In this document: positions 5,919 through 28,659 of the stretch, one piece after another | Position numbering within the stretch: position 1 is the first letter of the stretch | How the letters are laid out: each line of letters starts with the position of its first letter | Assembly (NCBI GenBank): GCA_018065035.1 | Contig: JAGHUC010000025.1 | Location: 1-45,705, forward strand | DNA: 45,705 bases | Origin: Candidatus Egerieousia equi | Lineage (GTDB): Bacteria; Bacteroidota; Bacteroidia; Bacteroidales; UBA932 | Reading direction: 5' to 3' | Notes under the pieces: generated by a model | What the model saw: the letters and a program-made list of their open reading frames with translations, nothing else | Database searches by the model: none | What the model was told of the DNA's origin: nothing | Program-made: the position numbers and the translations under genes

Positions 5919-5946
5919 AACTTTTTTAGCTGAAAATTCTTTTATG

Positions 5947-5954: not shown

Positions 5955-5958
5955 GGAT

Positions 5959-5966
5959 TAATTTTG
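5959..5966 (+). promoter_or_regulatory. -7 element for the glgX-type gene, almost touching the start codon
   Basis: TAATTTTG matches TAnnTTTG and ends seven bases before the ATG at 5974, so transcription would begin only a few bases before the start codon. No -33 TTG occurs at the usual spacing, so an additional upstream promoter cannot be excluded. Confidence 0.45.
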
Positions 5967-5973
5967 CAATTAT

Positions 5974-8148: not shown

Positions 8149-11100
8149 CTACCCTTTGTACACGACGTCCTCAATGCTTGCAGGGAATTTCTTGCTTTTG
8201 TCGATGAGTTCCCATTTCTTTGAGTAATGGACTTGCCAGACAATTTCATCCCTTGAGCGTTTCCTCTTATTGTAGTAAACCAGCCATATCAGGAATGACT
8301 TGAGTTCATTGAGCAGGCCCTTCTTGCAGAATGAATCAATGAGCGCGTCAATGCGGTCAATCTCAGCCTGCTCTTTCCTGACAGCCTGATATTTGTTACC
8401 AATCTTGTTTATGTCGTATCTTCCGTAAATCACGCCTTTGTCCTGAAGCAGATACGTATTGTTCAGATTCGAATATGTATTGAAAACGCTTGAACCATTA
8501 GTGATGTAACCACTGTCGTTAACGGTGTAGAGCTTGCCTTTTGAATCCTTTTCCCTTCTGATATCAAAACAGTCAGTCACAGGTTTTGGAGATGATGCAA
8601 AGTAATTGCCTGCGAAACCTGAACTCTTTGTTGAAATGAGTGAGAACAGTGATGGAAAATCAGAAAGGGAATAATAGTTGCTCTGAATCTTCTTGCCATC
8701 CTTGAAGAATTTTTCTTTCCAGAAGTTAGTCTGATACTGACAGAAATCCTTCTGAAGCATGGCAAGCAGCATTATGTCGTTGAACCAGAAGCCGGTGAGG
8801 TATTCCTTGGTGTCTATGCCGGCATTGCTGAAGAGCGTGTAAACCTTATTGTCATAATTGTCAATTGCTTTCTGATCAATATCAACTTTGTATGACTGGT
8901 TGTTAGCCTTCTTGAACTTGTTTGTGAACTTCTTGTGCATTTGTGAATAACTGAAGTTCTTGAAGTAGTCCAGGAGCTTGCTCTCAGTGCTGTTGGCGTT
9001 GTTCTTGCCGTCATTCAGTATGTTGTCCAGATCAAAATGGAAGTACTCTTCATTCAAATGAAGGAAATATTCCGTGAATTTAGCAGCACATTTACTGCCC
9101 GGAATACCTTTCATAAGGTTATCCAGAGTCCCTTTGGCATAGTTTCCACAGCCCATTGTAAGTGAATTGTCGAAATGAATGTCGTAGAAACATCGTTTTG
9201 AACCGGCAGAGTTGTTGAACATTATGAGTATGGTGGCAAGTTCATGCCCTTCAGTTGTGGAAAAATCCACGAAGCCGCAACATACAGGGGAAAGGTCACA
9301 GACATGGCCTGACGGTATTTTCCCAGTATATTTGTCAATGGAGAGTTCAGTAGCCGATGCACAGGTGTGGAACAGCCTTGAACTCAAGTCAATGACTTCA
9401 TATTTCCCATCAACCAGAGCAGGCTTTATTGCAATATTGTACTGCGATGGCAATTGAGCCAGTTCGTTTCCGCTTGAAGCGGGAGCGGCAGGAGCAGGTT
9501 TCGGTTTGGTTTCCGGTTCAGGTTCGGGCTCCGGCTGCTGTTGTGGTTGTGGTTGTGGCTGCGGCTTGGTTTCCGGTTTCGGCTGTGGCTTGGCAGTACC
9601 TTCAGCAGTGCCGGACCCCTTGTCAGGATCAGGACTGAGTTCGCCGCTTGGATTCGGCTGATTGTCGGCATTGTAGAATTCGGCGAATACCAGAGGTCTG
9701 ACAGGACCCTGGTAGTCCTTGAGCAGATCCTTTATTTCAGTTCCATCCTTTACATGATTGTATGCACTGAATTTTGGTCCTACCTGACCAACTGATGAAG
9801 ATTCGGCAATCTTGAGGTTTATTGTATTGTCATCTGGGTTGGATGTTACCTCAACTATTATCTTTATGTGAAAATGATCTCCCTTGCTTATGTAAATGAA
9901 GTCTCCTGGTTTCGCATCCTTCAATTTGAAGTGAATGGTATTGTTCAGTTTCTTTGGAGCAATGCTGGTGGCATTGGACTTTGTGCATCCAGTGTAAGTA
10001 TAGATTCTGTGAGTGTCGCTTTTCTTCTCACTGTCATAATATTCGTCCAATGTGGCAAGCTGGGCATCCCTTGCAGCAAACATTGATTCCATAATGAACG
10101 ATATGGCTCTTGTAACGAATCCTGAGCAGTCAACGCCAATTGCGTTGAGTCTGAGCATTTCCTTCATATTGGACGGATGAAGTGCCGTTTCAATGCTGTC
10201 AACAATCTTTCTGACAGATGCAGGCGAATTCTTGCCACCTGTGTATTCTCCTTTACGCAGCAGCTGGAAGTTATAATCACCCTCTCTGTCAATCTGAAGT
10301 TGCTCAACTATCTTTTTGATGGCATTCCAGTTACTGCTGTCACTTCTTTCCTTCGGTTTTCCTGTATCCTTCTCAATTCTATACTTGTCAGTTGCAAAAC
10401 CCCTGTATTTGCTGGTGTCCATGTAATAAGGAGGATATATGATTTTTGCAGGATCCTTTGAAATATTCCAGGCATTCATATATTCGCGTAGTCTTTCCGT
10501 AATGAATTCATGAATGCCATAATGGTTGAATACGAGCTTGCCTGACTCACTTTGGAAACAGAAACCTGCCCTGGTCCTTGTATCGGGAATGAATTTTGCC
10601 TTTGCCGCCATCCATAGACATAAGAGTTCCTTTTTCAGGTATTCATCATTGCTTCCGCTGCTGTTGGTGAATCTGCCAAGTTTGCTCCAGTCATAATGCT
10701 CAATGAACCATGCAAGCATAAGTTCAAGCGGTTTTCCATTTACAGGACAGTTGCCTTGAAAACCAAGGCAGACCGCCATTGGAAAAGTTGAGTCGAAGAA
10801 TTGAGCAGTATCATTTTCATCCTTGAAGAAATCCGGAACCAGAGAAATGACAAGGTTCATATTCATGAAAGTCTCCCCTTTAAGCCTCTGCTTCATCTCA
10901 TTGAGAAAGTCTGTATCAGGATATTTGTTTCCCGAACTGCAGATCAGAAGAACCTGTGTATCGGTGGATGGTTTTTCAAGTGGATTTGAAATGTCCTTGC
11001 ATTGAACATCGTATTCGGAGAGAATCTTCTTGATACTTGTCCTGGCTTCCTTGTGCCTTGGACCTTTGAGTTCCTCCCTGTCCATTGCCTTGTAAATTCC

Positions 11101-11205
11101 GTGGAATTCATCAGCGACTTCCGATGATTCTGTCCATACTGATTTCAAGGTCTTGCGCAACAATCCATTGCAATCAATCAATTCCATTTGAATTTTCTGA
11201 CTCAT
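8149..11205 (-). CDS. Large protein with NlpC/P60-like module, Pro-rich linker and possible lysozyme-like C-terminal domain (1018 aa)
   Basis: This is the last gene of the six-gene block. Residues 1-340 match nothing I know. Residues about 345-515 look like an NlpC/P60-type cysteine peptidase: C360 in V-D-C-S-G-F-V, a K-P-G-D-F-I-Y-I-S strand, and H444/H446 in G-D-H-F-H-I-K-I. Residues about 520-580 are a low-complexity Pro/Glu/Lys/Gln linker. The last 430 residues contain a pattern (I-L-I-M-F-N-N-S, then F-Y-D-I-H-F-D-N-S-L-T-M-G-C-G-N-Y) recalling the catalytic hairpin of GH46/lysozyme-superfamily enzymes, but with Asn where the catalytic Glu would be expected. There is no signal peptide or lipobox. 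I infer two potential peptidoglycan-acting modules in a protein made without a classical export signal. It follows the glycosyltransferase-like gene by 11 bases. Confidence 0.7.
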   Translation of the reverse strand: MSQKIQMELIDCNGLLRKTLKSVWTESSEVADEFHGIYKAMDREELKGPRHKEARTSIKKILSEYDVQCKDISNPLEKPSTDTQVLLICSSGNKYPDTDFLNEMKQRLKGETFMNMNLVISLVPDFFKDENDTAQFFDSTFPMAVCLGFQGNCPVNGKPLELMLAWFIEHYDWSKLGRFTNSSGSNDEYLKKELLCLWMAAKAKFIPDTRTRAGFCFQSESGKLVFNHYGIHEFITERLREYMNAWNISKDPAKIIYPPYYMDTSKYRGFATDKYRIEKDTGKPKERSDSSNWNAIKKIVEQLQIDREGDYNFQLLRKGEYTGGKNSPASVRKIVDSIETALHPSNMKEMLRLNAIGVDCSGFVTRAISFIMESMFAARDAQLATLDEYYDSEKKSDTHRIYTYTGCTKSNATSIAPKKLNNTIHFKLKDAKPGDFIYISKGDHFHIKIIVEVTSNPDDNTINLKIAESSSVGQVGPKFSAYNHVKDGTEIKDLLKDYQGPVRPLVFAEFYNADNQPNPSGELSPDPDKGSGTAEGTAKPQPKPETKPQPQPQPQQQPEPEPEPETKPKPAPAAPASSGNELAQLPSQYNIAIKPALVDGKYEVIDLSSRLFHTCASATELSIDKYTGKIPSGHVCDLSPVCCGFVDFSTTEGHELATILIMFNNSAGSKRCFYDIHFDNSLTMGCGNYAKGTLDNLMKGIPGSKCAAKFTEYFLHLNEEYFHFDLDNILNDGKNNANSTESKLLDYFKNFSYSQMHKKFTNKFKKANNQSYKVDIDQKAIDNYDNKVYTLFSNAGIDTKEYLTGFWFNDIMLLAMLQKDFCQYQTNFWKEKFFKDGKKIQSNYYSLSDFPSLFSLISTKSSGFAGNYFASSPKPVTDCFDIRREKDSKGKLYTVNDSGYITNGSSVFNTYSNLNNTYLLQDKGVIYGRYDINKIGNKYQAVRKEQAEIDRIDALIDSFCKKGLLNELKSFLIWLVYYNKRKRSRDEIVWQVHYSKKWELIDKSKKFPASIEDVVYKG

Positions 11206-11216
11206 ATTCTTGAAAT

Positions 11217-12071
11217 TTACAGAGTTAAGTTAAATTTGGATGCCAATGTGCGAGCAGTGTCCTCAGAGAGGCTGCGCAACTTGTTCATCATTGAATTAAC
11301 AAGCATTTCAGCTTGATGTGGGAATTCCCTGGCCATGTCCTTGGCACCCCATAAGTGAGTGAAAATATCATTCTCCTTTTGAAAAGGGTCATCCACCAGT
11401 GGAATTATTCCTATTCCCTTGCTTGCTGCATGCATTGCAAGAAGTCTTTGTTCCGCAAATACCATCTGCGATACATTCTCCATTGCAGGTTCATTGTTGC
11501 CGGTCATGAAGTCCATTGCATGAGCAATGTAATCCTGTTTGAAGTCCTGATTGTTGAAATATGCAAATGCTGTGTTGCATGGTTTTTCCTTCCAGTTCCA
11601 TTCAGGATTGAAACTGTAACCGGGACGTACTTTCAAGTCCTCCTTATTCACATAACATTCTATAAGTTCCTCCCTGTGAAGAACACTTATGCTGTCCTTT
11701 TCGAAAAAGTTGTCCAGATTCTTCCAGATAATCAGGTCCGTGTCAATCATTGCAACGGGAGCGCTTTCCTCCCTGAGGGCAAAAAGTTTGGATGCAGCCC
11801 AGAATATGCTGTGATTTATATCAGGCATATTCTCAAGAACCTCAGTGTTTATACCGGCATCCCATACATCAAGAATGCCAATGTCCCTGTAGTATTCATA
11901 TCCGTATGAGTCGGTAAACAGACCTACAGGTCCGTTCGTGTTTCTCCACATCAGGGCTGAAAGAGCGGTGCAGATAACTTCAAACGGCCTCGGACTGTAT
12001 TGGAAGTCATCTCCCTGCCGCATTCTGGCTCTTGCGGGAGCAGTGCTCAGGATATGAATGGCTTTTGTCAT
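11217..12071 (-). CDS. GT-A-like protein (possible DUF6734-type glycosyltransferase)
   Basis: This 284-residue soluble protein has an I-H-I-L-S-T-A-P start and a hydrophobic strand followed by M-I-D-T-D-L-I-I-W-K-N-L. That is the DxD-type metal/nucleotide-sugar signature of GT-A glycosyltransferases, preceded by F-W-A-A-S-K-L-F-A-L. A second element, N-T-A-F-A-Y-F-N-N, resembles the acceptor-site loop of LPS-type GT8/GT32 enzymes. I remember similar proteins as DUF6734, but cannot verify that here. Its ATG overlaps the TGA of the upstream 605-residue gene (ATGA), so the two are translationally coupled. The likely role is to glycosylate a product of the same operon or to make a sugar precursor; this is inference from position. 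Confidence 0.65.
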   Translation of the reverse strand: MTKAIHILSTAPARARMRQGDDFQYSPRPFEVICTALSALMWRNTNGPVGLFTDSYGYEYYRDIGILDVWDAGINTEVLENMPDINHSIFWAASKLFALREESAPVAMIDTDLIIWKNLDNFFEKDSISVLHREELIECYVNKEDLKVRPGYSFNPEWNWKEKPCNTAFAYFNNQDFKQDYIAHAMDFMTGNNEPAMENVSQMVFAEQRLLAMHAASKGIGIIPLVDDPFQKENDIFTHLWGAKDMAREFPHQAEMLVNSMMNKLRSLSEDTARTLASKFNLTL

Positions 12072-13885
12072 TTTTCCACTTTTATGAGTTCATCAAACAT
12101 AAGTCCGCTGTTTGCCTGATACCCTGAATTCTTCTTTGTGAAGCCGCTCCATCTGAATTTGCGGCCTTTAATCCAGCGCGTCATCTGTGCTGTTCTTGTG
12201 ACCTTGGTTCCATATCCGAGAACTTCCTCCTCGTTGAGGAATCTCGCTTTGATACGTTCACATTCCTTTCCATTGGAAATGAACTTTTCCTTGATGCAGG
12301 CCAGAATTTCTCCTGAAGGCCTTACGGAACAATATTTCCCGTTGTACCATAAAGGCATCCTTCCTCTTCTGAACACTGTCTCCCTTGTACTCCCTTTGAT
12401 ATGCTGCGGTATGAACGGAATCCAGTTGACTGGGACTCTGTTCTGGAACAGATAGGAATATTCAGCGCTTTCTTCAGGCTGGACATCATTTCCATTCTGT
12501 CTGTCAACGGCTTCGAGAATCTTTTCGGAGAACGAGTCTCCGTTGAATGTGCCGGAACATCCATCCGGAATAATACTCTCTATGCCCCAGATCATGTTTG
12601 TCATTTCATCTCTGAGGAAGTGTACTTCCTCAAGAGGCTGGCTCTCCTCTGTTCTGAGTACAGTAGGGGCGAAGAGGAGTCCTCTCGATGTTGAGAAGTC
12701 ATTGTTGGCTGCATCGGGGGAATATGCAGACAGCCTTGAGTTGGAGAAGAGGGCCCATCTGTTGCAGAAACCTGTGTCCTTTGACTGGCAATCAACTTCT
12801 TCCGGTGTCCTGTTCAAGAACAGATGTTCCCCGAAAGTGTCTTCAATCACTATTCCTTTTACATCCAGGATTGTACCAAGTTCGGCCTCAAGTGGAATTA
12901 CCATCCAGTCATTGCTGTACATTGATGTGTACTGCATAATAACCGCGCTGGCAAGTTGTGAGACGTCCTGGTTGGAGTAATTGCCGAACTGAACAGCCTG
13001 ATTCTCGAATTCCCACAATCTGCGCTTCGGCGCGCATGGGAAAGTTGCCGGAGAAGGCAGGTATGAAAGCAACTTGTCAAGCGCCTTGCTGTCCTTGCCT
13101 GTTGTCTGTCCTGCATGATCGAAATTGTACCATGAAAGTCTGCCGGAGCTGTAATCTTCAGCCTCATACCTGTCATTTCCTGCAGTTATTCCAAGTTCGT
13201 ATGCAAGCTTGTTCTCGTTCCAGAAATCAAAACTGTCCGGTTCAGCCGATACCGGGATATATTTTTCACGGTACCAGTTCCTGTATAGAGCGAGAATGCT
13301 GTTGGCTTCAGCCCCAATGGAGAGGTCCTTGTCCTCAAATACAGCCGCCCCATCAAAGCACCTTCTTCCATATACAGCCCATAGCTGTTTAAGACGGTCA
13401 TTCTCTGATACCTTGAGGTCTTCAATGCTATCGCCAGTGGAGAATGAGAAATCCTGCAGAGGATATCTGGTGCGCAGGAGTGCATTTATTTCTTCGGACT
13501 TTGATTTACCTAGTTTGGAAGAGAGCATTCTCTGCAAGTGCAGGGCCGATTCAATCCTGATGGCAGGGGTAATGGCATGATTGCGCTTTTCCACTTCATA
13601 TTCAAGCGGCTTCTCTGTGGAGAATGCCTTCACTTTTCCATCATGTGTTACTGAATCAATGCTTTTACGTGTGGAATGCACCTTTACCTTGACGGCAGTT
13701 CCACAGTCATTTGCCTCGAAACGTCCGTACTGCCATTGACGGCAGAGCATCCAAAGTGGGTCAAATACCTCAAGTGAAAGGGCTGTTGAGTAGTCCGCCA
13801 TCCTGGTTCTCGGTTCAATTCTATAATTCTCCGAGCCTTCCCAAATTCCGCGGGAGCGTATTTCTTCTATACTGATCTTGCTCAT
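12068..13885 (-). CDS. Conserved protein of the large operon with D-P-L-W-M-L-x-R-Q-W-Q motif (605 aa)
   Basis: No function is known to me. Residues 22-65 carry R-I-E-P-R-T-R, then F-D-P-L-W-M-L-C-R-Q-W-Q-Y-G-R-F-E-A-x-D and C-G-T-A-V. I remember this block, unverified, from uncharacterised proteins of actinobacteria, myxobacteria and cyanobacteria (D-P-L-W-L-L-A-R-Q-W-Q-x-G-E-F). Further matching blocks are D-W-M-V-I-P-L-E-x-x-x-G-T-I-L-D-V-K-G-I at about 325-345 and V-P-V-N-W-I-P-F-I-P-x-H near 485, followed by an R-E-T-V-F-R-R-G-R-M-P segment. There is no signal peptide or membrane segment. It starts three bases after the stop of the 1560-residue gene and overlaps the glycosyltransferase-like gene by four bases. 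A structural or scaffold role with the other large proteins is my inference. Confidence 0.75.
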   Translation of the reverse strand: MSKISIEEIRSRGIWEGSENYRIEPRTRMADYSTALSLEVFDPLWMLCRQWQYGRFEANDCGTAVKVKVHSTRKSIDSVTHDGKVKAFSTEKPLEYEVEKRNHAITPAIRIESALHLQRMLSSKLGKSKSEEINALLRTRYPLQDFSFSTGDSIEDLKVSENDRLKQLWAVYGRRCFDGAAVFEDKDLSIGAEANSILALYRNWYREKYIPVSAEPDSFDFWNENKLAYELGITAGNDRYEAEDYSSGRLSWYNFDHAGQTTGKDSKALDKLLSYLPSPATFPCAPKRRLWEFENQAVQFGNYSNQDVSQLASAVIMQYTSMYSNDWMVIPLEAELGTILDVKGIVIEDTFGEHLFLNRTPEEVDCQSKDTGFCNRWALFSNSRLSAYSPDAANNDFSTSRGLLFAPTVLRTEESQPLEEVHFLRDEMTNMIWGIESIIPDGCSGTFNGDSFSEKILEAVDRQNGNDVQPEESAEYSYLFQNRVPVNWIPFIPQHIKGSTRETVFRRGRMPLWYNGKYCSVRPSGEILACIKEKFISNGKECERIKARFLNEEEVLGYGTKVTRTAQMTRWIKGRKFRWSGFTKKNSGYQANSGLMFDELIKVEK

Positions 13886-13888
13886 GGC

Positions 13889-16800
13889 TTATTTCATATT
13901 AAGGAACTGTGCGAGGATTGATCCTCCTGGCATGTAATCGAAAATTGATGCGCTGAACGCATATTCAAAGGCTTTCTCCATCTGTGCCCTTGACATTGAG
14001 CTGGCATTGTATTCTTTTGATACAAGGTTTATTTTGCGGTCCGAGAGAAGAGGAAGAATCTTTGAAAGCTCCTTGTCTTCATATATTATGTCAGGATCAA
14101 CGGCTCTGTTCATAAGCATGAATCTGGTGGAGTCGAGAATATCGGTCACATGCTTGAAGTCCCAGTTACTGTTCTGCGGATTGATGCTGAAGTCAGGATA
14201 CGTTGCCAGAAGTATTGCCTGAGGTGCTTCTGCATCGGGTTGGTCCATACGGAACGCCATGCCTGCAGTATGCTTTGCGTATGGAATGTATTCCATCCAG
14301 GAATCAATGACAAGACCTCTCATAGCGCAATCTGCATGTTCGAAAGCCTTGCCATTGAGTACCAGCAATGAGTCGGCATCATCGAGTTCGGCTTCCTGCG
14401 ACACTTCTGCTCCGAGCCATTCTGAAGAAACTGAACCTGAAGCTTTTTCCTGATAAATGAATGGAACACCGTTGTTGTTCACACCTGCAATCTGCTCGAA
14501 CATTGAAAGTGTGTTCCATTGTTTGAGTCCAGACCTTACGGCTGCCGTTTCCTCAAGCCAGTCTGCTATATCCTTGATATTGCTGTAACGGCTTATGCCT
14601 TTTTTCATGCTCAGGCTTATGTCTTTCCTGTGCACTTCACTAACAATACCGCTGATTCTGAACTGTGGAAGAATACGGAATGAGTCAAGTGTGAGTTTCC
14701 TTATGGCATCACAATATGACTCGCTTCCATTCAAGGCAATGCCGGCTGACTCATCGAGCCTTGACTGTATCATTGCACTCAAATTACTGATTCTTTCAAT
14801 GAATGTTTTCTGAGCGGCAACGGCCTGGTCGTATTCAACGCGCTGACCGATTCTGTCGTACGAAGAAAGGAAGAGTGCAGGCTCATATTTTATGGAAGCG
14901 TTCAGCATTCCGGATTCCACGCATTGAACGGAAAGGGAGTAGAGTCTTCCAAGAATTTCATCGTCAAATTCCTTCATCTGAAGCGCTTCGTTCACCAGAT
15001 TATCAATTGACATTTTGAGTGATGAAAGGAAATCTTTTGCCAGTTTGAGCCTTGCAACAAGGTCCTCCATGTCAATGCTGCTTTCAACTTGCCCGTCGGA
15101 TTCAGTTCCAGGAGCAAAGTCGCTGGCCTTCATGGCCCTTGAATTGCAGACAAGGGCTCTTATGGCAGATATTCTGGTTCTGTCCTCATATAGGGTGAAA
15201 ATGTTTTCATCTTCAAGCGGAAGTATTTCTCCTGATTCAGTTTCTGCAGGATCTCCCGTAAGAATGCGCAGTTTCCCGGTATATATTCCTTTTTGGGATC
15301 TCCACTTTATTTCCAGCAGGTTCTTCAGGACATCGGTATGGTCGGAGATATACAGATATTCTTCAGGGTCAATGTCCATTTCCTTCAATGAACTGCGACA
15401 GATACCATTTTCACCATCAATGTAGAAGACAATGTTTTCAAGGGAGCCGAGCAAGGTTCCAACCCATTCGTTGACTCCCGGTTCTGCCATTGCCAGCAGG
15501 GCCAGAGGACTTGAAGAGGCTTGAGGGACAGCTACTGCAACTTTATGAGCTACTGCAACATATTCCATAGGAGTGCTGAGTATGGCAGGGTCCGGAACAT
15601 TGCCGCTTCCTTTGGACATGAAGTTCGATATTGCGCCGAATGATTCCTTGTCAGAGGCTACAAGCCGGAATACGCCTTCGCCAAGAAGAAGGTCGTTCAA
15701 GGCATCGTAGGAGTCCTGCATCCTTTCAATCATAAGGAAAAGGACTTTGAGTTTACGTTTGTCATTCAGCAGTTTGTCCTCCTTCAGTTCTTTCAGCCAT
15801 TCAAGTGAATCGGAGTTCTTTTCGAGCCATAAGGAGATGCGCCCGATTTTGTCATCATTATTACCATAGTTCCATCTGTCCATGAAGGAGTTCAGAAGAA
15901 CTTCTCCGTTTATCACTTCCATTGTGTGGTTGGAAGCACGTCTGTCAAGGGTCTCTATGTCAATTGACTGCGGGAAGAACTTTCGTAATGGATATATGTA
16001 GGCGTCCATCTCAACCCCGTATCTGCTCTGCGCTTCGTGCAGGTATCTTTCAAGATCCGATCCGAGTATAATTCCGGTGGACATTCCGTTCTTGACATTT
16101 TCAAGCATTCTCAAGGCCTGGCGGGCGCGTGCAGAGGAAAGATTAATGCACATATGGGAGTCTCCATTGTGGCTCATTGTGTTGGTGTATGCACTTCTGA
16201 GAACTGCAGCTGTAAGGGCATGCTGTATTGAAGGTGCCATTACATACTCACCTTTGTCCTTTCCGCTGTGTTCCAGAATCTCAGTTCCTGAAGGAAGTTT
16301 CATATCCTCAACTATTGTTGAGCTGTCTTTTATGACAGAGCGTGCGTTCCTGCTCAGATTGAATACCCAGCCGTATGCGCCAATGGCCGGGACAATGCTC
16401 TTTCTGGCCTTTCTCGTTTTGATGAGGCTGCATATCACTCCGGTATACCAGGCATCAAGCCTGTAGGAGAACAAGTCAATGAATTCACCAATCAGACTGT
16501 CTGCCTGTTCTTCGCTGAGCCATGGCATTTCCTTGCATAAAGCAGCTCTGATTGCGCTCTTTTCAGTCAAAGGTGTTACTGCATCGGAAATAAGGGTAGG
16601 GCGGAAGAAATCAGAATCATCCAGCATACCTATGATTTGCGGTCCTTCTGCACCTCTGTCCGCCAGTAACGGGCTGTCAATCATATATCTCTTTCTTGTT
16701 TCAAGAGAGCGTGCATTCTGTGAAACCATCTTGAGATAATTCTTCTGCGCATCGTCGCCTTTCATTTTCTGCGGGCTTATCACTTGTGAGTCCCTTACGG

Positions 16801-18571: not shown

Positions 18572-18575
18572 GATT

Positions 18576-21500
18576 TCATCGATTTGAATTGGTAAGGAAC
18601 AATGATATGTGTTTGCCGTATCTGGTAGGAGCGTTGACAAGCGCTTTTGCAACAGCTGCCGCCTGATCCTGGCCTTCAAAATTCACCGAGGTGTCAAAGT
18701 TAAGGTCCTCCACGTGTTCTTCAAATGTGAGAAGGTAACCATAGTCGTTCTTTGCAGGATTGCCCATTGCCTGCTGCAGCGGGATGTCAAAACCTACAAG
18801 CATAATGTCTTCATTGAGGAAGGTAAGCATCGATGGTCTTATGATTCCGAGCCCTTTTTCAATATCCTTGCTGAACTTGACCTGATTCTTCCCTGCGGCC
18901 TCCGCCTTGCTCAGGTAAACATCAGTTGATGGATATTGCTTGAGAAGTTTGCCCTTGATGGCAAAAATCAGCAGTCCGGCCTTGGATTCCAGATGATTGG
19001 AACCAAGTTCCCCATCCCAGGCATGCACAGGCTTGATGTCAAAATACCGCCCGTTCGCAATGCTGTCTTCACCTGTGTCGGAATCCCAGAACTTCCTGAA
19101 GCAGGATCCTCGCTGGTCAGTTGGATATTCCCTCCATAGAAGCTCCCTTCCCATTTCGGTGTTCATTCCGCAAAGGAAGGCTTCCTCGAATGTTGCGTTG
19201 CTGAGGAAGAGTGCAACGGAATTGTCGCTCATTTCACTTACGGCCGGAAGAATGAACTTCTCGCTCATAAGCTTGAGATAGTAATAAGTTGGTTCAGGGA
19301 AAATAGGGTAGGCTATGATAGGATATCTGGTCAGCAGCAGTTCATCAAGGTATTCCTTACGCAGCTTCTCACCGATTTCACTGTCCTGGAAGAACAGTCT
19401 GTAATATCCTTCAGCCGCCTTGATCATCCGTTCATACGATTCCTTTGTGCTGTCGGATACAACGGCAGCCAGACTTGCCGCATCCTTCTGAGTCTGTTCC
19501 ACATTGTTCTGCGCCTTGTCTCCAGCCTTATTCCCACTTGCACTGTACCAGCCTGTATGTGTCTTTATGTATTCCAGATTGTTCTTGAACTGAACCCATA
19601 TCTGGAGACAAGGAAGTTCATACAGGCTTCTGCTTCTGCAAACCATATCCCTGGCAAGGCAGGCGATATCCAGAAGGATGTATTGAGGCCTGTTACAGGA
19701 ATATGGCTCTATCTTTTGCAGGAATATCTGAGGAGTCCCCACAAAGAATGATCCGCTTTCAACCTTGCAGCTGAGGTTATACCAGTTCACCGCATTTCTT
19801 ACAAAGCTGTTGTGGTTCAAGTATTCCTCCCGTATTCTGTCCCAGTTGGCAAAATAGATAGGACGTGTCTTTCCAACGGCAGTGACAAGTGTATATGGAC
19901 CGAAACAGTCTGTATATATTCTGTCGTAAAGAAATACAACATCGTAGATATCCTTCGGACTTCCTTCTGAAGAATAGGAACGGGAGAATTCAACACCTTC
20001 CATTGAAGAGAATCCAGCTGCTACGAATTTCTTGACCTTGGATTCACTGAGAAGCTGGCCGTCCAGTTCCTGATCCTGAATCGATTCATTTATGAGAGCT
20101 TCGTCAATTTCAAAGAATTGTCCCATAAGTTTCTTGAAATTGTCGGAAATCAGCAGCTTGAAACTTTCATTCTTCAAGTCTTCAAGCTCCTCCAGACTCA
20201 TGCTGCCCGGAATGTCATATCCGGCAAACCTGTAAGTCTGGTTCCTGACAATGTTCTCCATCAACGATGTGCTGTCAATATTGCAGCTCTTTTCCGCGAA
20301 CCTGGTTCCAAGTCTGAAAGATGGAGAGGCAAAGCCGGCCGGAATATCATTGTCCTTAAGCACAGACTGCAATGAAACACCATCATTGGCTGCATTTTTC
20401 ATGGTGCTCAGATATTGCATCATGTTTGCAATGAATTTCTCATCCTTGCCGAATGCATTCATTGTCTTTCCAACAAGTGAACTGTTGGCTCTCAGACTCA
20501 GCAGTCTTTTATACAGCTCGGCATTCAGGGCATTTACAGCTTCAACCTGCTTCCATGCCCTGTTGACAAACTCCTCCTGATGATTCTGAACAACCTTCCT
20601 GCCCAAACCGGCAACAGCGCGGTTGTTGATGTCCAGGTTAAGGCTGTCGAGCCATTCCTTGTCTTTTTCACCAAAGCCGGTGCTCATAGCGTGTCTTGCT
20701 CCGTAAACCGGAGGCACAATCATTGGATCATCGCTGTCCTCCATTGGATCCACCGCATTTCCCGAAGAACTTATTTCAGCTCTATTATCTTGGAAAACAG
20801 GATTTTGAGAAAGAAGCGACTTTATGTTGTCATACAGAACCTTTTCATTTTTCTCCACTGGCGATGGGAATGCTTCCGGCTCTTTCCAGTCTAAAGTCCT
20901 TGTGGCTGCAGGAAGGAGAATGCTCTTTCTTGAAGGCTTGTTTTCAAACAATTTGTAGTCAAGACCTTCGCCCATATGAGCAACATCAACATCTATCCCG
21001 GCCTTCTTGCATTCAATGGCGCTGAGCTTCTCAACCATAATGTCAAAGGTGTCCTCACCGCTTACAAAGTCCCAGTTGTAATATACCGGGAAATCGAATG
21101 GTCTGTAACCGTGCTTTGCCTTCTGGCTGGCATAGTCTTCCTCCCAGGCAGGCATCTGCGCCAGTATTTCCGTATGGTTGTCATTGTCAAGCCCTCTTAA
21201 TCTTCCTGTTTCAAAGGTGGGAACAAGCATCGCAGTATAGGATGTGGACGGTTCCAGTGAGGCCGAACCATTCCTCAGGGATATGATTCGTGAAAGCAGC
21301 GGTTTCGTTGCACTGTCTCCCTGCGCATGAGCTGTTTTATAAATTTCGTATGGATTCAGGAAGAGCTCCTTGTAGTCATTTTCACTGCCATCGAAAGTGA
21401 AGAATTTCTTACCATGAGAGTCACGCTTGATTGAAATGCTGCTGCTTTTTGCTACAAGCATAGCTATCCATGGACGCAATGCCTTGCCGTTGGGAGCAGC

Positions 21501-21851
21501 CGGTGAGTATCTCCATGGAAAATCAGGCTCCCAGAATTCAATGTAGGGATAGAATTGAACCGGGAACGTGTCACTCGCGGGGGCAGGCACAACTTTGCTG
21601 ATAGCTGCACCGTTTATGCCAAGAATATCTCCGGCTCCAACGAACTTCACGGGCTTTTCGTGAGTCATCTTCACGGGCTCATCCGACTCCTCATCAACTC
21701 CGAAAGCGTTGTATTCGGCAATGATATTTATTTCAGGACGTTCCAGCACAGAGGCACTGCATTCGCCAAATGTCCAGGCGTCCTTTTCAGCAATGCTGTT
21801 TCCAAGTCCTTTCCTTACCCACGAAAAGAAATATGTCTTTTTGTCTTGCAT
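18576..21851 (-). CDS. Conserved large protein of the operon with E-F-x-x-P-D-F-P-W motif (1091 aa)
   Basis: No function is known to me. The N-terminal 140 residues appear beta-rich and contain V-G-A-G-D-I-L-G-I (71-79), I-E-F-W-E-P-D-F-P-W-R-Y-S-P-A-A-P (104-120) and L-R-P-W-I-A-M-L-V (125-133). A central block near 379-425 reads P-P-V-Y-G-A-R-H-A, then L-N-L-D-I-N-N-R-A-V-A-G-L-G and V-V-Q-N-H-Q-E-E-F. I remember the same order (P-x-Y-G-R-W-H-A, L-N-L-D-P-R-x-R-x-A-A-G-L-G, V-V-Q-x-x-Q-E) in uncharacterised proteins from other phyla, unverified. The rest is mainly helical. There is no signal peptide. It starts eight bases after the 1707-residue gene and is followed after four bases by the 1560-residue gene. 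Confidence 0.75.
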   Translation of the reverse strand: MQDKKTYFFSWVRKGLGNSIAEKDAWTFGECSASVLERPEINIIAEYNAFGVDEESDEPVKMTHEKPVKFVGAGDILGINGAAISKVVPAPASDTFPVQFYPYIEFWEPDFPWRYSPAAPNGKALRPWIAMLVAKSSSISIKRDSHGKKFFTFDGSENDYKELFLNPYEIYKTAHAQGDSATKPLLSRIISLRNGSASLEPSTSYTAMLVPTFETGRLRGLDNDNHTEILAQMPAWEEDYASQKAKHGYRPFDFPVYYNWDFVSGEDTFDIMVEKLSAIECKKAGIDVDVAHMGEGLDYKLFENKPSRKSILLPAATRTLDWKEPEAFPSPVEKNEKVLYDNIKSLLSQNPVFQDNRAEISSSGNAVDPMEDSDDPMIVPPVYGARHAMSTGFGEKDKEWLDSLNLDINNRAVAGLGRKVVQNHQEEFVNRAWKQVEAVNALNAELYKRLLSLRANSSLVGKTMNAFGKDEKFIANMMQYLSTMKNAANDGVSLQSVLKDNDIPAGFASPSFRLGTRFAEKSCNIDSTSLMENIVRNQTYRFAGYDIPGSMSLEELEDLKNESFKLLISDNFKKLMGQFFEIDEALINESIQDQELDGQLLSESKVKKFVAAGFSSMEGVEFSRSYSSEGSPKDIYDVVFLYDRIYTDCFGPYTLVTAVGKTRPIYFANWDRIREEYLNHNSFVRNAVNWYNLSCKVESGSFFVGTPQIFLQKIEPYSCNRPQYILLDIACLARDMVCRSRSLYELPCLQIWVQFKNNLEYIKTHTGWYSASGNKAGDKAQNNVEQTQKDAASLAAVVSDSTKESYERMIKAAEGYYRLFFQDSEIGEKLRKEYLDELLLTRYPIIAYPIFPEPTYYYLKLMSEKFILPAVSEMSDNSVALFLSNATFEEAFLCGMNTEMGRELLWREYPTDQRGSCFRKFWDSDTGEDSIANGRYFDIKPVHAWDGELGSNHLESKAGLLIFAIKGKLLKQYPSTDVYLSKAEAAGKNQVKFSKDIEKGLGIIRPSMLTFLNEDIMLVGFDIPLQQAMGNPAKNDYGYLLTFEEHVEDLNFDTSVNFEGQDQAAAVAKALVNAPTRYGKHISLFLTNSNR

Positions 21852-21859
21852 AGTAGTCC

Positions 21860-24800
21860 CTATTTGTTTAGATTCGATATCAGGTCAGAAAGGTCGGCAT
21901 TCATATTCCTGTCAATTTCATTGATATATCTAGTGTAACCGTCCGGTGTACGTCTTGAAGAAGGCCTTCTTGAACTGCTTGTGGAAATGTTCCTTGGAAC
22001 AGCGCTTTCCGTGGCTGTCTTCTTGCTCTTCTTCTGACTGACTGCAGGTGTCGATGCATCATTCATCCACTTGCTCCAATGCAGGGCATCAATCTCCTGC
22101 ACCTTGAAGTCAGGCTGGGCCAGCTCGGATTCCACAGCATTCAGGTATTTCAGGTCCTCACCTGCATTCCTTACGCTGAAACCGGATTCCATAGCAACGT
22201 ACGATGGAGAACTGAGCTTTTCCTCCTTGCTCATTTCATGTATGAGAGATGGAGCGAACGATGAGTGAACAGGAGTATGTGAAGCCTCAATATCGCCGCC
22301 TCCGAATCTGACATCCTTGAGTTCTATCCTTGTAATGTCTCCTGGAATCGATTCACCATACTTCTCAATGTCTTCAGATACAGGAACTGCATTCTGGGCG
22401 AATGAGATATTGTCGAACGGATTCATTACAATCTCCTTTCCGTTATATGCTGCAATGCTTACGAGATTGTCCACCAGATCGCTTCTTATGATGCTCCAGT
22501 TCTCATTGTTGTAGAATTCATCCTTGAGCATTGTCTGCAAGGATACGTACTTCTTGTCTGAAATGCTCTGGCTCTTGCCCCAGGTTTCGGAGAAGTCAAT
22601 GGATATCTTCACAAGGATGAACCAGAACGAAGCGGAACCCTTGATATGCCATTTGGCCGGGCCTTCAACATCAAGTGCGAGAGAAACTGAAAGCAAGGTC
22701 CAGTCTCCGCACTTGACAGCAACACCTACTCCAACGTCGAACATGAATGCGAACGGATTGAACTGGAACAGGGTGTTGAAGTACATATAACCTGACAGGC
22801 CGAATTCATCCCATCCGATCTGCAGTCTGGCATCCGCACCGAACTGAACAGTGTTGGATGTAACTGCAAAATATGCCTCCAGACCTATTTTCAGGATGGA
22901 ATAGTCGAGCTTCATTCCTATTCGTTTCATCTGGCCCACGTTGAAGCCGGCTTCAGGAACGTATTTAGGATGGAAACCACCGGCTGAGAGCAGGAAGCCC
23001 TTTGTGCTGCCTCCCCAGTATATCCTTAATGCAAGGCTGCCATAGAAATCGATTCCAACAAGTTTGGTGTCAACAAGTTCGGCATCAAAGTCAAAGCCTT
23101 TTGAAGGATCAAGATTGGCCATGAAGTATGCGTTCATGGACAGCAGTTTCTCTGCTGCATCGGCAAGCTTCATGTGAAGTCCGCCGAACAGGGTGATAGT
23201 TACAGGATTTGGAGCCTGAACAAAGAGTCCGAGGTCTATGACAAATATTTCAGCCCAGGTGAGCTGTGCCATCACTCCAAGGAAGAACTGGTCTTTCTTT
23301 ACAGGATAATAAATGGAGAGGTTTGAAAGTATTTCGTCCAGATGGTCCTTGACATCCGTGACAAATACAATCGAACCAAGGGAACCATCCCTGACAGCAA
23401 GCTGGAGTTTGTCGGTATCTATCCTTCTGTTCAGACCGAGGGAACCGCCAACTGCTGTAAGACTGAATCCCAGGCCAATCTGCAATCCCGGATGGAATCC
23501 TACGTAAAGCGCACCGAGGAATGAGAATGGAGCTCCATCCTTTTCCTTTGTTATCAGTTGGAAGAAAGCGTCGGCACTGCATATTCCAAGTATGCTTATG
23601 CCGGCCATGCCGGTAATCTCTCCTGTTTCACGGTTCCATTTGAGAGCTCCGGTTCCGGTGACTACATCGGGGACCTCAATGCTTATTCCAATACCGTCGG
23701 GGTAGGTTATGGCAGGAGTGAAATCAAAGTCTCCCATGCCTCCGTCCTTGCCAAGAATGTTGCAGCTCAGGCCTACGCCCATGTCGGCGAATGAGAAAGC
23801 AACACACTTTAGGTCGGCGTTGAACGATGTCTTTATATTGGTGAGGAAGTCACCGTCCTTGATGCCGAATTCAAAGAAATTGTTCTTGAACTTGACAGCA
23901 CCAAGATCTATGTTCTTTGTGATAGGTATGCTTACATACAGTCCTCCGCCTATATCGAGTCCTTTCTGCAGAGAATAGCCAATATGGAAGTCAACAGGGA
24001 TTACAATGTCGCCATCGAGTATTTTATTGAAGAGTCCGTTGAGCTCCTTGAGTTTCAGCTTTATTATGAAGTCCTTTATTTCACATAGATAGCCTATGTC
24101 AAACTTCTTCTCCTTATATGAGAGTTTGAATGTCTGAGGGTAATTGGTTATTCCCAGATCAACGATTTCGGAACTGAAAATCTCCTCTTCATTATCATTG
24201 TCCTTACCATCTCTTCCGCGGGCGAATTTCAGGCTTGCATCAAGCTCGATGGAAGACAGATCGGCCATTGGAATGACTTCAAGCTTGAAAGGAGAGGATC
24301 CCTTTGTAAAGAACAGCCCTATCTTGCCATTCAGATTGTCCGCCTTCTGTTCTCCACCATTCAAGGCTGCGCCTCCGCTGATATTCAGGTAGTGCTTTTC
24401 GCCTATGTTAATGTTCTTGAGCAGATTGCATTTGATTACAGGAATGATGTACAGACCTGCCTTCATTCCATCCTTGGTCGGTTTCTCACCTGCGTATGCA
24501 ACAATCTGCAAGTCAAAGTTCTTTTCCTTGTCCTTATGGTTGACAAGCGTTACTGCCAGGAAACGGTTCTTTGTGTCAAGTGTGTATTCAGGAAGTTTTA
24601 TGCTGTCAAAATCAAAGTCAGGAAGTTCAATCAGACCATTAAGCCTTTCTATTATGCCTGCTGGAATTGATTTGTAGAGACTTGCCGCAAACTTCATTCC
24701 ATCTTTCCAGAGTTCCGGATTCTCCAGTATTTCGGCGGCATCCTTTATTTTGAGTACATCGCTTACCAGTGTTTTTGCAGAAGGCAGAAGATCGTTGATG

Positions 24801-26983
24801 ACAGGTGCACTCCATTTCCTGATGTCGGAATCAATCAAGTTGGCAAAAGGCTGGATGACAATTTCCTTCAACGATTCCTGCATGCTTTCCCACCAGGCTT
24901 GTGATATTTCGTGGGCGAATGCTTCAATCCTTGCGGCATCAATGTCATTGCCTGTATATGTCACAGCGTCCGTGATAATTGCTGTTGACCGTTTAATTAC
25001 ATTGTCATGGAATTTACCCGTGTTGAAAGGCAGGATGTCTTTCAGGTCTGAAGAAATCGTTTGCAGGAATGAATCGGTACTGAAGCCCGAAGGACTTGTG
25101 AACTTGAAGTCGGTTGTATCAGGAACGTTCCTTGTGAGGAATGCAAGTTTCTCTTCAAGCATTTCCATTGCATTGCAGAAATGTGCATCAAAATCCTTTC
25201 CAACGGCATTTTCCAGGCTGCTGCACAATTCTTCAAGAATCTCAGCAATGAAATCATACGATTTGCCGCTTCTGCCCTGCAATATATATTCTTTAATCTT
25301 TTCAGATGTTTCTTTTCCGAAATATTCCAAAGCCTTGTCGGCGCCAATCATTGCCAGAGGTTCCACTATTCTTTGGCTGATCTGCTCGGAAAGGCCGGAA
25401 ACGGCCATTTTCTTCAGCTCCTCGATTTCAGGAAGCAGTTCCTTGATATGTCCGTCAAGCTGGTCTTTGAGCAGACCTAGTATTCCGGAATCCTCAGCTC
25501 CTTCCTCATATATCATGCCTTCATCATCCTCAGTAATCAGGTGGTCGCTGTGGTTGAAGTCATTGAATGCTCCGCTCATCACTCCCTTGAAGACAGAAGC
25601 CGTGCTCTCGAATATCTTGAACCTGTCGTCAAGCAGAGAAAGCATATCATTCATGTCGGAGATATCAGCCGCGGCGAGAGGATTGCTGTGATCCTCCATG
25701 CGGCTCCTGATTCTTGCATCAAGTTCTGTGAGGAACTGAAGAGGTGAATCTATGCCTGGTGCTTCATCGTTGAAAGCCTTGGCTATTGCAAGAATCTTGT
25801 TGAGGATAATCTGGGCGTCACCAATGTTCCTGATTCTGAATGTTGATTGCAGGTAATCCAAAGGCTCAGTGAACAGCTGTTTCACCACGTGCCACTTGAA
25901 AGTGAGAATCTTGACCTGTGATGTGCTGAGGACATTGCTGTCCGCAATAGCTGCCGGTACAAATTTCATGAGGTCAATCTTCCTCTCCTCAATTATGCCC
26001 AGCAGATCCAGAATGGAATAAACCTTGTTGAAAACCCTTGCAATGGAGTTGAAATCCATTGAAGAGGAGAATGAAGCCAGCCTGGCTCTGGCCACTGCAA
26101 GTTGCGATTCCAGGATAGGAGGGATGTTGTCCTGTACCTGGCAGAAATACATTGCTGCCTCAGCTCTTGCCTTGGTACGTGCCTCGTTGATTTTTCCCTC
26201 AATCTCGGATATTTCCTTCTGGATGCGCTGCATGTCTTCCATTGCCTGACCTCCAACAGCCTGTTCCAGAACATTTGCACCCTGTTCTATCAGCCCCTTG
26301 ATATCGTCCATGAACACATCCTTGGAACTCTTGAGAACGAGTATGAGAATGTAGTCCAGAATCCTCTTTCCAAAGGCCTCGGTCATATAGGACTTCTGAA
26401 TGAACTCTCCAAAGTTCCTGAAATCCCTGGCAATGCTGTCCCATTCGATCTGGGAGAACTTCTTTACAAGTGTGATTATCTCCTGGACCAGATCCAGAAC
26501 AGCTTTGATCTTGCCGGCGTTGCCTGGCAGTGCCAGTTCAACTTTCAAGCTGCCGCCTTTGAATTCCTTGTCCAGGACCTTTTTGAATTCACCCTCGTCA
26601 AACAGTTCTCTGGCTGCTTCCAGGCCTTTTCCTGACAAGTCAAGGCCTTCAGCATCAGAAACGAGTTCCTGTACGCAGTTTCCCAGTTTTATGGAAGAGG
26701 CAACCAGGGATTTTACAAGGTCGAGCAACTCCCCTGATTCAGATGAGGAAATATCGTATCCGAGTTTGGATATGATTCTGTTGATGAATTTGTCAATCAG
26801 CTCAAAGTTCTCCTTAGCTCCGGCTGACTTGAAACTTTCCCATGACAGGCCGTCGGCATCCAGCCCGTCCAGGAAGTCCTTGACCATAGTATCTTTCACT
26901 TTTGAAAGTACCAGGCCGAATTTAGCTATGAAACTCCCGACAGCTCCGTCAAGAATGTTGTCCTGGCTTTTGTTGTCTCCCAT
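21860..26983 (-). CDS. DUF6603-like giant protein, helical N-terminal half and beta-rich C-terminal half (1707 aa)
   Basis: This is the first gene of the six-gene block and has no signal peptide. Residues 1 to about 800 are long amphipathic helices with many L/I/K/E heptad-like stretches. From about 820 to 1500 the sequence alternates short hydrophobic/polar strands with turns. Its core carries P-G-L-Q-I-G-L-G-F-S-L-T-A-V-G-G-S-L-G-L-N-R-R (about 1165-1187) and G-G-F-H-P-K-Y-V-P-E-A-G-F (about 1332). These match my memory of DUF6603, where G-F-x-L-T-G-V-G-G-L-x-G-x-N-R and G-G-F-H-P-R-F are diagnostic. The last 200 residues are polar and end with a Ser/Arg/Lys-rich segment. Repetitive strand patterns would suit an extended beta-solenoid, groove or fibre. 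RidA ends only 29 bases upstream and I see no promoter in that gap. Confidence 0.78.
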   Translation of the reverse strand: MGDNKSQDNILDGAVGSFIAKFGLVLSKVKDTMVKDFLDGLDADGLSWESFKSAGAKENFELIDKFINRIISKLGYDISSSESGELLDLVKSLVASSIKLGNCVQELVSDAEGLDLSGKGLEAARELFDEGEFKKVLDKEFKGGSLKVELALPGNAGKIKAVLDLVQEIITLVKKFSQIEWDSIARDFRNFGEFIQKSYMTEAFGKRILDYILILVLKSSKDVFMDDIKGLIEQGANVLEQAVGGQAMEDMQRIQKEISEIEGKINEARTKARAEAAMYFCQVQDNIPPILESQLAVARARLASFSSSMDFNSIARVFNKVYSILDLLGIIEERKIDLMKFVPAAIADSNVLSTSQVKILTFKWHVVKQLFTEPLDYLQSTFRIRNIGDAQIILNKILAIAKAFNDEAPGIDSPLQFLTELDARIRSRMEDHSNPLAAADISDMNDMLSLLDDRFKIFESTASVFKGVMSGAFNDFNHSDHLITEDDEGMIYEEGAEDSGILGLLKDQLDGHIKELLPEIEELKKMAVSGLSEQISQRIVEPLAMIGADKALEYFGKETSEKIKEYILQGRSGKSYDFIAEILEELCSSLENAVGKDFDAHFCNAMEMLEEKLAFLTRNVPDTTDFKFTSPSGFSTDSFLQTISSDLKDILPFNTGKFHDNVIKRSTAIITDAVTYTGNDIDAARIEAFAHEISQAWWESMQESLKEIVIQPFANLIDSDIRKWSAPVINDLLPSAKTLVSDVLKIKDAAEILENPELWKDGMKFAASLYKSIPAGIIERLNGLIELPDFDFDSIKLPEYTLDTKNRFLAVTLVNHKDKEKNFDLQIVAYAGEKPTKDGMKAGLYIIPVIKCNLLKNINIGEKHYLNISGGAALNGGEQKADNLNGKIGLFFTKGSSPFKLEVIPMADLSSIELDASLKFARGRDGKDNDNEEEIFSSEIVDLGITNYPQTFKLSYKEKKFDIGYLCEIKDFIIKLKLKELNGLFNKILDGDIVIPVDFHIGYSLQKGLDIGGGLYVSIPITKNIDLGAVKFKNNFFEFGIKDGDFLTNIKTSFNADLKCVAFSFADMGVGLSCNILGKDGGMGDFDFTPAITYPDGIGISIEVPDVVTGTGALKWNRETGEITGMAGISILGICSADAFFQLITKEKDGAPFSFLGALYVGFHPGLQIGLGFSLTAVGGSLGLNRRIDTDKLQLAVRDGSLGSIVFVTDVKDHLDEILSNLSIYYPVKKDQFFLGVMAQLTWAEIFVIDLGLFVQAPNPVTITLFGGLHMKLADAAEKLLSMNAYFMANLDPSKGFDFDAELVDTKLVGIDFYGSLALRIYWGGSTKGFLLSAGGFHPKYVPEAGFNVGQMKRIGMKLDYSILKIGLEAYFAVTSNTVQFGADARLQIGWDEFGLSGYMYFNTLFQFNPFAFMFDVGVGVAVKCGDWTLLSVSLALDVEGPAKWHIKGSASFWFILVKISIDFSETWGKSQSISDKKYVSLQTMLKDEFYNNENWSIIRSDLVDNLVSIAAYNGKEIVMNPFDNISFAQNAVPVSEDIEKYGESIPGDITRIELKDVRFGGGDIEASHTPVHSSFAPSLIHEMSKEEKLSSPSYVAMESGFSVRNAGEDLKYLNAVESELAQPDFKVQEIDALHWSKWMNDASTPAVSQKKSKKTATESAVPRNISTSSSRRPSSRRTPDGYTRYINEIDRNMNADLSDLISNLNK

Positions 26984-27012
26984 AAAATATAATTGTTTCA
27001 GCTTGTATCTTT

Positions 27013-27384
27013 CTATCCGGCAATGGCGTCAATCTCCACCAGTGCACCTTTAGGAAGGGCTGAAACCTGGTAGCATACGCGTGCGGGTGCTGCTTCAGGG
27101 AAATATTTTGCATATACGGCATTCATGGCACCGAAATTGTTGATGTCGTTGAGCAGAACGCAGGTCTTTGCAACATTTGAATAGTCCAGGCCGGCTGCCT
27201 TGAGTATTGCACCTATATTGTCCAATGACTGCTTTGTCTGGGCCTCGATTCCTTCAGGCATTTCACCTGTTGCAGGATTTACCGGAAGCTGACCTGAAAC
27301 ATATACAGTTCCGTTGAGTTCTATTGCCTGTGAATACGGGCCTATGGCCTTTGGTGCATTTTCTGTTGCTATTACTTTTTTCAT
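27013..27384 (-). CDS. ridA: RidA-family reactive enamine/imine deaminase
   Basis: This 123-residue cytosolic protein hydrolyses 2-aminoacrylate-type enamines and imines released by PLP enzymes, working as a trimer. It has the full family pattern: G-P-Y-S-Q-A (about 16-21), V-S-G-Q-L-P (about 29-34), Q-T-K-Q-S-L-D-N-I near 53-61, and A-P-A-R-V-C-Y-Q-V, whose Arg binds the substrate carboxylate, then L-P-K-G-A-L-V-E-I-D-A-I-A at the end. It lies between the DUF4421-like gene (33-base gap) and the large operon (29-base gap), all leftward, so it may be transcribed together with the six-gene block. The functional link to that block is unknown and may be only positional. Confidence 0.93.
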   Translation of the reverse strand: MKKVIATENAPKAIGPYSQAIELNGTVYVSGQLPVNPATGEMPEGIEAQTKQSLDNIGAILKAAGLDYSNVAKTCVLLNDINNFGAMNAVYAKYFPEAAPARVCYQVSALPKGALVEIDAIAG

Positions 27385-27417
27385 ATCTGTTGTATTTTAG
27401 AAATTATCGTTTACTGT

Positions 27418-28599: not shown

Positions 28600-28659
28600 A
28601 AGAATTAAAAATTATCTAAGAATTTCCCTACTGCGAAATTACAAAATAATGACTTAAAA

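Follow-up and report, generated by a model that had tools for sequence, protein, structure and literature searches.

The operons of extracellular contractile injection systems (eCIS) are described as comprising 15-28 genes (PMC8213781). In the NTP-dependent conflict systems described in PMC7159879, the effectors that go with a fixed core vary between trypsin-like, subtilisin, caspase-like and phosphoesterase types, and adaptor domains are present as well. Caspase-like and trypsin-like proteases are described beside bacterial gasdermins (PMC9079055), and members of the metallo-beta-lactamase superfamily are described as partners of trypsin-like proteases in antiviral systems (PMC12799240). In this work, we analysed a stretch of 45,705 nucleotides from Candidatus Egerieousia equi, hereafter the window, which contains an operon of giant proteins. 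The DUF6603 protein is named D and the products of the next three genes A, B and C. The D-A-B-C cassette, as defined in the present analysis, consists of these four families encoded on one strand, in this order and with short gaps, as they are in the window.

Like eCIS, these loci are sizeable gene clusters that occur here and there among environmental bacteria and archaea and have variable enzymes close by. However, there are four giant proteins here as opposed to the 15-28 genes of an eCIS operon. Identity with eCIS was rejected, since Phage_sheath_1 had 0 matches in the genome of the window (1.92 Mb, 95.7% complete), the same profile being positive in 3 of 14 known genomes used as control. 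Tube, baseplate, spike and tail-terminator families were absent from the Pfam matches of the six window proteins. A phage or prophage origin was also rejected: viral contigs scanned with A gave 43 pattern matches and no relative, and phages gave 1 partial match, a piece of A on an unverified 'Bacteriophage sp.' faecal scaffold (MT835531.1, 36268-36888), which could be bacterial contamination.

The bacterial gasdermin operons are similar in coupling a protease to a membrane-engaging protein, a role that is here proposed for D. A protease-like gene lies beside D in many relatives, the window having just a stretch with a sub-threshold NlpC/P60 match. In contrast to those operons, D is predicted to form a giant beta-sheet and its partners include non-proteases; gasdermin was absent from the 50 PDB fold matches listed for D. 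With the NTP-dependent conflict systems the locus shares a fixed core with exchangeable effectors, but the Pfam matches of the six window proteins, considered up to E 1, included no NTPase core family (MoxR, STAND, GTPase), and a weak LeoA match (PADLOC, E 0.01) was the only one of this kind. The very long amphipathic beta-sheet predicted for D recalls ApoB100 and LptD; however, the TM score is at most 0.22, no common fold is claimed, and no export signal was seen in D. The domain carried by D, DUF6603 (PF20248), is itself a family of unknown function. The literature search, whose scope left aside preprints and most subscription journals and in which the families could appear under other names, found no mention of DUF6603, DUF6734, PF20248 or PF20508. 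Among the described systems that could be compared, none was found whose defining features the core shows, and the literature searched gave no function for it.

Results

The operon and its products

The preliminary description had reported six leftward genes with their lengths and gaps, and the ORF coordinates bear it out: positions, lengths and gaps were confirmed in the ORF listing, and the genes, all on the minus strand (Table 1), follow each other at distances of 8, 4, 3, -4 and 11 bases within 18.8 kb. For B, a TTG at 18679 is an alternative start that would give 1596 aa. Promoter-like and terminator-like sites were no commoner in the window (23 and 18, respectively) than in shuffles (28.3 and 18.2), and thus the operon status rests on packing and conservation. 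The GC content of the operon (46.3%) is close to that of its flanks (46.4 and 47.2%), giving no hint of recent import.

Table 1. Genes of the operon and their products, in order of transcription
Gene	Position in the window	Strand	Product
D	21860-26983	(-)	1707 aa; N-terminal region helical, followed by a beta-rich part that contains DUF6603 (PF20248, residues 1027-1587)
A	18576-21851	(-)	1091 aa; variable middle between two conserved halves
B	13889-18571	(-)	1560 aa from ATG; unnamed family
C	12068-13885	(-)	605 aa; unnamed family, mixed alpha/beta
DUF6734 glycosyltransferase-like protein	11217-12071	(-)	284 aa; D-x-D motif (DTD)
NlpC-like protein	8149-11205	(-)	1018 aa; sub-threshold NlpC/P60-like stretch at residues 357-451

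None of the six proteins has a 19-residue stretch whose Kyte-Doolittle hydropathy averages at least 1.8, so the earlier statement that no signal or membrane helix is present holds for the window copy. Some relatives do pass this threshold, namely 13 of 78 for A, 40 of 74 for D, 5 of 79 for B and 0 of 71 for C. The segment of the 13 A proteins is strongly hydrophobic and located in the variable middle, six of them having a second one and the window's A none, and the segments of D are mostly inside the beta domain. In 17 haloarchaeal and Streptomyces proteins there was no evident signal; over their first 50 residues, the mean hydropathy of 15-residue stretches reached 1.83 at most.

Two Pfam families were over the cut-off among the six proteins: DUF6603 in the first (291.9 bits to PF20248, E 1.1e-86; curated cut-off 27 bits) and DUF6734 in the fifth. 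Searches with NCBIfam, PADLOC and PHROGs yielded nothing of weight, since the matches either fell in the low-complexity linker of the sixth protein or were weak; the best PADLOC match was the one to LeoA, over a short stretch of D. A was without any listed Pfam, NCBIfam or PADLOC family, and no family of weight was found for B in these three collections or in PHROGs.

A conserved four-gene cassette

An alignment of A was scanned against 84,980 species genomes, giving 402 relatives. The best 80 of these 402 loci were kept and two plasmid loci were added, and in the resulting 82 loci the families were found by profile searches of stop-to-stop frames. The complete cassette is present in 70 of the 82, with 11 cut by contig ends. 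A single locus (L093) contains A-B-C without D, although 5 kb of upstream sequence is present. No gene order other than D-A-B-C was found in any of the 82, which excludes chance for the first four genes. A and B are neighbours in 81 pairs, and the median gaps are 5 (D-A), 12 (A-B) and 6 bases (B-C), with 68/77, 70/81 and 65/73 of them, respectively, between -150 and 50 bases. In L090 and L112, D and A are separated by 1.2 and 2.0 kb. Among plasmids, A and D each match 13 of 72,556 records, and these are the identical 13, four of them haloarchaeal. A genome scan with B alone gave 11 pattern matches and zero relatives. D-A-B-C is a genuine conserved unit.

It had been stated before that the idea of a single system would fail if the large proteins did not occur together elsewhere, and with the 82 loci of one order and the shared 13 plasmids that idea came through this test. 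The cassette ranges over several bacterial phyla and haloarchaea, judging by record titles, in which bins can be impure and single odd labels (a 'Crenarchaeota' MAG) are not trustworthy. The recurrence across phyla stated in the preliminary description was confirmed for actinobacteria and myxobacteria; for cyanobacteria, also named there, no locus was found among the best 80 of 402. The distance matrices of D, A, B and C correlate at 0.88-0.96 over 34 shared loci, against a maximum of 0.235 in 500 permutations (A-C only). This is as expected for genes inherited together, and shared descent alone raises such values. The multi-subunit assembly put forward in the preliminary description is putative.

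In the tree of A the phyla are intermixed, and A was found in 2 of 39 same-genus genomes, the window's own included, by a protein search in which highly diverged copies could go unnoticed. Therefore, the cassette is patchy and it probably moves horizontally, though its base composition here equals that of the flanks. A comparison with empty sites in the genus was uninformative, since the flanking genes were too divergent.

Some loci are peculiar in their organization. Contig JAGCYZ010000107.1 has two D-A-B-C cassettes (L046 and L083), 1.8 kb apart and from different clades of the A tree. Two adjacent genes, 1074 and 2196 bases long, cover the A region of L152 (13896-17161), on the Rhizobium lusitanum plasmid p_3, which gives the impression that each half of A has a gene of its own. 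In L153, on a Streptomyces plasmid, tyrosine recombinase/integrase genes flank the D-A-B-C locus (3759-7381 and 25181-28802).

An exchangeable enzyme upstream of D

The main clue to the system, absent from the preliminary description, is the gene upstream of D in the relatives, which encodes a swappable enzyme. The start of D is visible in 71 loci (of the 82, 6 are cut and 5 have no D in view), with 40 short D (about 820-1270 codons) and 31 long D (1496-2259). An enzyme-like gene is directly upstream in 30 of the 40 loci with short D and in 0 of the 31 with long D, which are not 71 independent cases, given that D changed between short and long few times and that near-duplicate loci were counted. 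The origins of long D are few and lie chiefly in two clades, one of Algoriphagus and one made up predominantly of gut Bacteroidales. In the other 10 of the 40 loci with short D, no enzyme was recognised at this position; L050, which belongs to these 10, carries a dock protease (see below) downstream. The possibility that long D is a fusion of D with the upstream enzyme was rejected, since in profile comparison its long N-terminal regions matched the enzyme clusters at nothing above 15% probability. In the clade of the window, hhalign (89.7%, E 1.8e-6) pairs part of this region with the N-terminal portion of short D, and the Algoriphagus-type region matched nothing in profile comparison.

The upstream enzymes comprise trypsin-like, subtilase, PhoD, M64 and suspected cysteine peptidase classes, and on a quick tree of A (25 rows, 6 classes) the class changes at least 10 times, the minimum possible being 5. 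For the trypsin-like proteins, Pfam mostly stayed below the cut-off, with sub-threshold trypsin matches in L048, L100, L102 and a tandem copy of L057, the last of which also has Nal1_C over its cut-off. Pfam is over the cut-off on some members of the subtilase cluster. For the PhoD-like cluster (8 loci), Pfam support was found in 3 of the 8 tested, 2 of them over the cut-off, and the M64 peptidase is over it in L071 and below it in L093. The serine motifs are kept in 9/9 trypsin-like (GDSG) and 3/3 subtilase proteins (GTSMA), and DDHE in 8/8 PhoD-like proteins. By simple patterns ([TS]A-x-H for trypsin-like), a catalytic His in a plausible place was seen in 1/9 trypsin-like and 2/3 subtilase proteins. 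Two further upstream families (alignments A10 and A11), which match each other (hhalign 85.3%, E 6e-6), have conserved His and Arg-Gly-Cys positions that presumably recall clan-CD cysteine peptidases, a reading that found no confirmation in Pfam, PADLOC and solved-structure searches. In PADLOC, run on nine accessory proteins, the subtilase matched subtilase and IetS, and one trypsin-like protein had weak matches to PDC-S45, LmuA and RT-protease.

The trypsin-like and subtilase proteins have in common a C-terminal module, here called the dock, which is about 100-110 residues long and bears the motif W-x-R-x-x-G-P. The docks of the two classes match each other (hhalign 98.2%, E 3.3e-14), with the catalytic parts unrelated; L108 is an example of a subtilase with dock upstream of D. 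A stand-alone dock is encoded as a protein of 136-148 aa just upstream in L065, L075 and L096. Among 395 Bacteroidota genomes the dock was found in four, three times directly upstream of D-A-B-C; in the fourth (G029), no core gene was found within the 19 kb examined and the dock frame is interrupted by a stop. The dock was absent from the PhoD-like, M64 and two suspected peptidase families, and a structure profile search gave it no solved relative (best E 0.27). From its sequence distribution, the dock looks as expected of a tether to the proposed chassis, and the enzymes may dock through it. Tandem dock proteins are encoded upstream of D in two loci, three in L057 (1854-6565) and two in L102 (3518-6595).

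A second type of DUF6603 locus

Among 296 Bacteroidota genomes, 13 matched DUF6603, 12 of them over the cut-off and one with two loci, which makes 13 loci over the cut-off, window included. These are of two types, six having A, B and C behind D and seven a different set that starts with the family T2a. T2a is related to the N half of A (hhalign 96.9%, E 1.4e-10), and one A relative matches the T2a profile at 1.6e-7. Thus, in 13/13 of these loci the gene next to DUF6603 is A or its N-half relative. As the partnership is kept in both types of DUF6603 locus, A would bind D through its N half.

In the second-type loci (L025-L031; G157, G039, G166, G099, G065, G048) another large family, T2b, is nearby in 6 of 7. 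Among the genes around them are one for a DUF4135 protein and others for Peptidase_S74 and metallo-beta-lactamase-like proteins, and in two of these loci (G166 and G065) the metallo-beta-lactamase-like gene is directly before DUF6603.

Predicted structures

For residues 540-1690 of D, AlphaFold (pLDDT 77, pTM 0.51) predicts helices followed by 39 strands between residues 800 and 1468. Of the strands with at least 8 residues, 19/31 alternate hydrophobic and polar residues at p<0.05 by permutation. Foldseek against the PDB gave LptD (E 3.6e-5) and ApoB100, followed further down the list by ushers; TM scores were 0.05-0.32 among the 50 matches listed. These matches are read as the class 'very large amphipathic beta-sheet' and are not taken as homology or a shared fold. 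Against viral models, a putative phage tail-fibre protein came first (E 4.7e-7), a resemblance which at a TM of 0.11 was taken as shared beta-richness. Pfam had no chorein match to D, and VPS13 was absent from the 50 listed PDB fold matches. Profile matches of D to solved structures were mostly helical bundles and coiled coils, in the N-terminal part.

The predicted fold of C (pLDDT 83, pTM 0.78) found no match in the PDB with Foldseek: of 271 matches at E <=10, none was at 0.001, the best having E 0.043 and TM 0.08. Profiles of C, A, B and T2b against solved structures gave nothing below E 0.09. An FG-GAP repeat lies in the variable middle of A from a Streptomyces plasmid and one haloarchaeal C ends in a lamin-tail domain, indicating that those places accept foreign modules.

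DUF6734 and the NlpC-like gene

The window's A groups with 12 other rows, several of them from rumen, horse faeces and, apparently, termite guts according to bin names; this clade includes Fibrobacter and a Myxococcota MAG, and its D is long. A DUF6734 gene lies behind C in the window and in 9/10 other clade loci that show this place, the exception being L037; in L038 and L042 the sequence ends before it. The match of the window protein to DUF6734 (PF20508) is clear (52.3 bits, E 7.2e-14; cut-off 27 bits), and D-x-D, which marks GT-A enzymes, is kept in 10/10 aligned rows, window included. We take DUF6734 to be a GT-A-type glycosyltransferase. The preliminary description, which mentioned a GT-A-like protein as joined to the large proteins in this copy, was right as to its presence, and the gene turned out to be a feature of the clade and nothing special to the window.

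The other addition noted there, an NlpC/P60-like module, is partly borne out. The Cys and His motifs are present in the 1018-aa protein (DCSGF at 359 and GDHFH at 442), but the Pfam match is below the cut-off (14.3 vs 23 bits, E 0.041) and the gene was found nowhere else searched. The protein has a Pro/Lys/Gln-rich linker at about residues 513-580 and a C-terminal part without match. Among 295 genomes of the order, 4 match besides its own, all within residues 519-624 around the linker, and no relative was found among the cassette-adjacent genes of the best 80 of 402 loci. The 1018-aa gene is outside the conserved set.

Discussion

According to these data, we propose that D-A-B-C is the membrane-engaging chassis of one multi-protein system with a swappable enzyme, acting in biological conflict, a reading to which we give a probability of roughly 0.4. 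D would lay down a giant amphipathic beta-sheet behind its helical region and, as we infer, engage membrane or lipid. A would hold on to D by its N half, and B and C would complete the assembly. The enzyme would be attached by the C-terminal dock (trypsin-like, subtilase) or otherwise (PhoD, M64, suspected cysteine peptidases). In clades with long D no enzyme would be mounted upstream; in the clade of the window, the DUF6734 glycosyltransferase-like gene behind C may take part instead, with the NlpC-like protein as an addition of the window copy. The armed complex would be made in the cytosol without visible export signal, and be set free through lysis or let loose within a doomed cell, the enzyme being the payload.

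Signal-less proteins, a constant chassis, the dock, interchangeable enzymes and a patchy distribution make a conflict machine fit better than a housekeeping function. The partner pool of other conflict systems, in the form described in PMC7159879 and PMC12799240, would also speak for conflict in general. On the other hand, the PhoD-like and glycosyltransferase-like partners also suit envelope or polymer metabolism, which speaks against the chassis and conflict reading. The weak PADLOC matches of the window proteins, the pTM of 0.51 of the D model, the hydrophobic segment limited to 13/78 A proteins, the 10 short-D loci lacking a recognised enzyme directly upstream, the mostly sub-threshold Pfam matches of the trypsin-like proteins with a catalytic His in 1/9, and the GC content equal to that of the flanks count against it as well.

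A different role of the enzyme, as trigger, would make the system a device of protease-gated intracellular self-killing comparable to bacterial gasdermin systems: infection would activate the protease, which would unleash the membrane-engaging parts of D and A and lead to cell death. The protease classes upstream of D do resemble those described beside bacterial gasdermins (PMC9079055) and in conflict systems (PMC7159879), the metallo-beta-lactamase-like gene before DUF6603 in G166 and G065 belongs to the superfamily described as pairing with trypsin-like proteases in antiviral systems (PMC12799240), and the hydrophobic segment in the middle of 13/78 A proteins also speaks for it. However, the PhoD-like proteins of 8 loci and DUF6734 in the clade of the window are not proteases, the Pfam matches of the six window proteins include no NTPase sensor, PADLOC matches of the core are only weak, and four giant proteins would be a costly suicide device. 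Since PhoD-like phosphatases and a glycosyltransferase-like protein stand in for proteases, the enzyme as payload is favoured over the enzyme as trigger, and we regard self-killing of this kind as unlikely, albeit as a main rival.

Equally unlikely, in our estimate, is a role in envelope or lipid handling, where D would be a lipid-binding bridge or sheath and the enzymes would remodel the lipids, glycans or envelope proteins of the producer. The amphipathic strands of D, its Foldseek resemblance to LptD and ApoB100, and the PhoD-like and DUF6734 partners would agree with it. It is at odds with the absence of a signal-like segment in the six window proteins and of an evident one in the 17 haloarchaeal and Streptomyces proteins, with the presence in 2/39 same-genus genomes, which is unlike housekeeping, and with the very different envelopes of the carriers. 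Less likely still is an enzyme compartment, a cage or filament of D-A-B-C that would house the docked enzyme and restrict its substrates with no conflict role, since, although a constant chassis with varied enzyme and a dock module common to unrelated proteases would suit it, the core proteins are large and of four kinds, in contrast to the known shells built from one protein, and no shell fold was among the fold matches of C.

If the reading as a conflict chassis is correct, it would tentatively describe a prokaryotic nanomachine of a new kind, present in bacteria and haloarchaea, in which four giant cytosolic proteins with a membrane-engaging beta-sheet would carry exchangeable mounted enzymes, partly via the dock, as a weapon or for programmed cell death. 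An 18.8-kb operon of giant proteins, with a fixed order across phyla and archaea and no described function found, leaves a considerable gap in our picture of prokaryotes. Enzyme swapping and the dock make it accessible to experiment, the questions being which enzyme is docked on what and acts on whom, and if D engages membranes it would represent a novel means by which enzymes are anchored or moved. There are about 400 candidate loci in the 84,980 species genomes, several of them in genera with cultured strains (Chitinophaga, Algoriphagus and Pedobacter).

Outside the operon, the window encodes a 643-aa protein (3987-5918) with an EF-hand-like stretch near its start, below the cut-off, no family over the cut-off and three hydrophobic segments near its C end. 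On the other side, at 27418-28599, lies a gene for a DUF4421 protein, which has two paralogues of 41-42% identity in the same genome.
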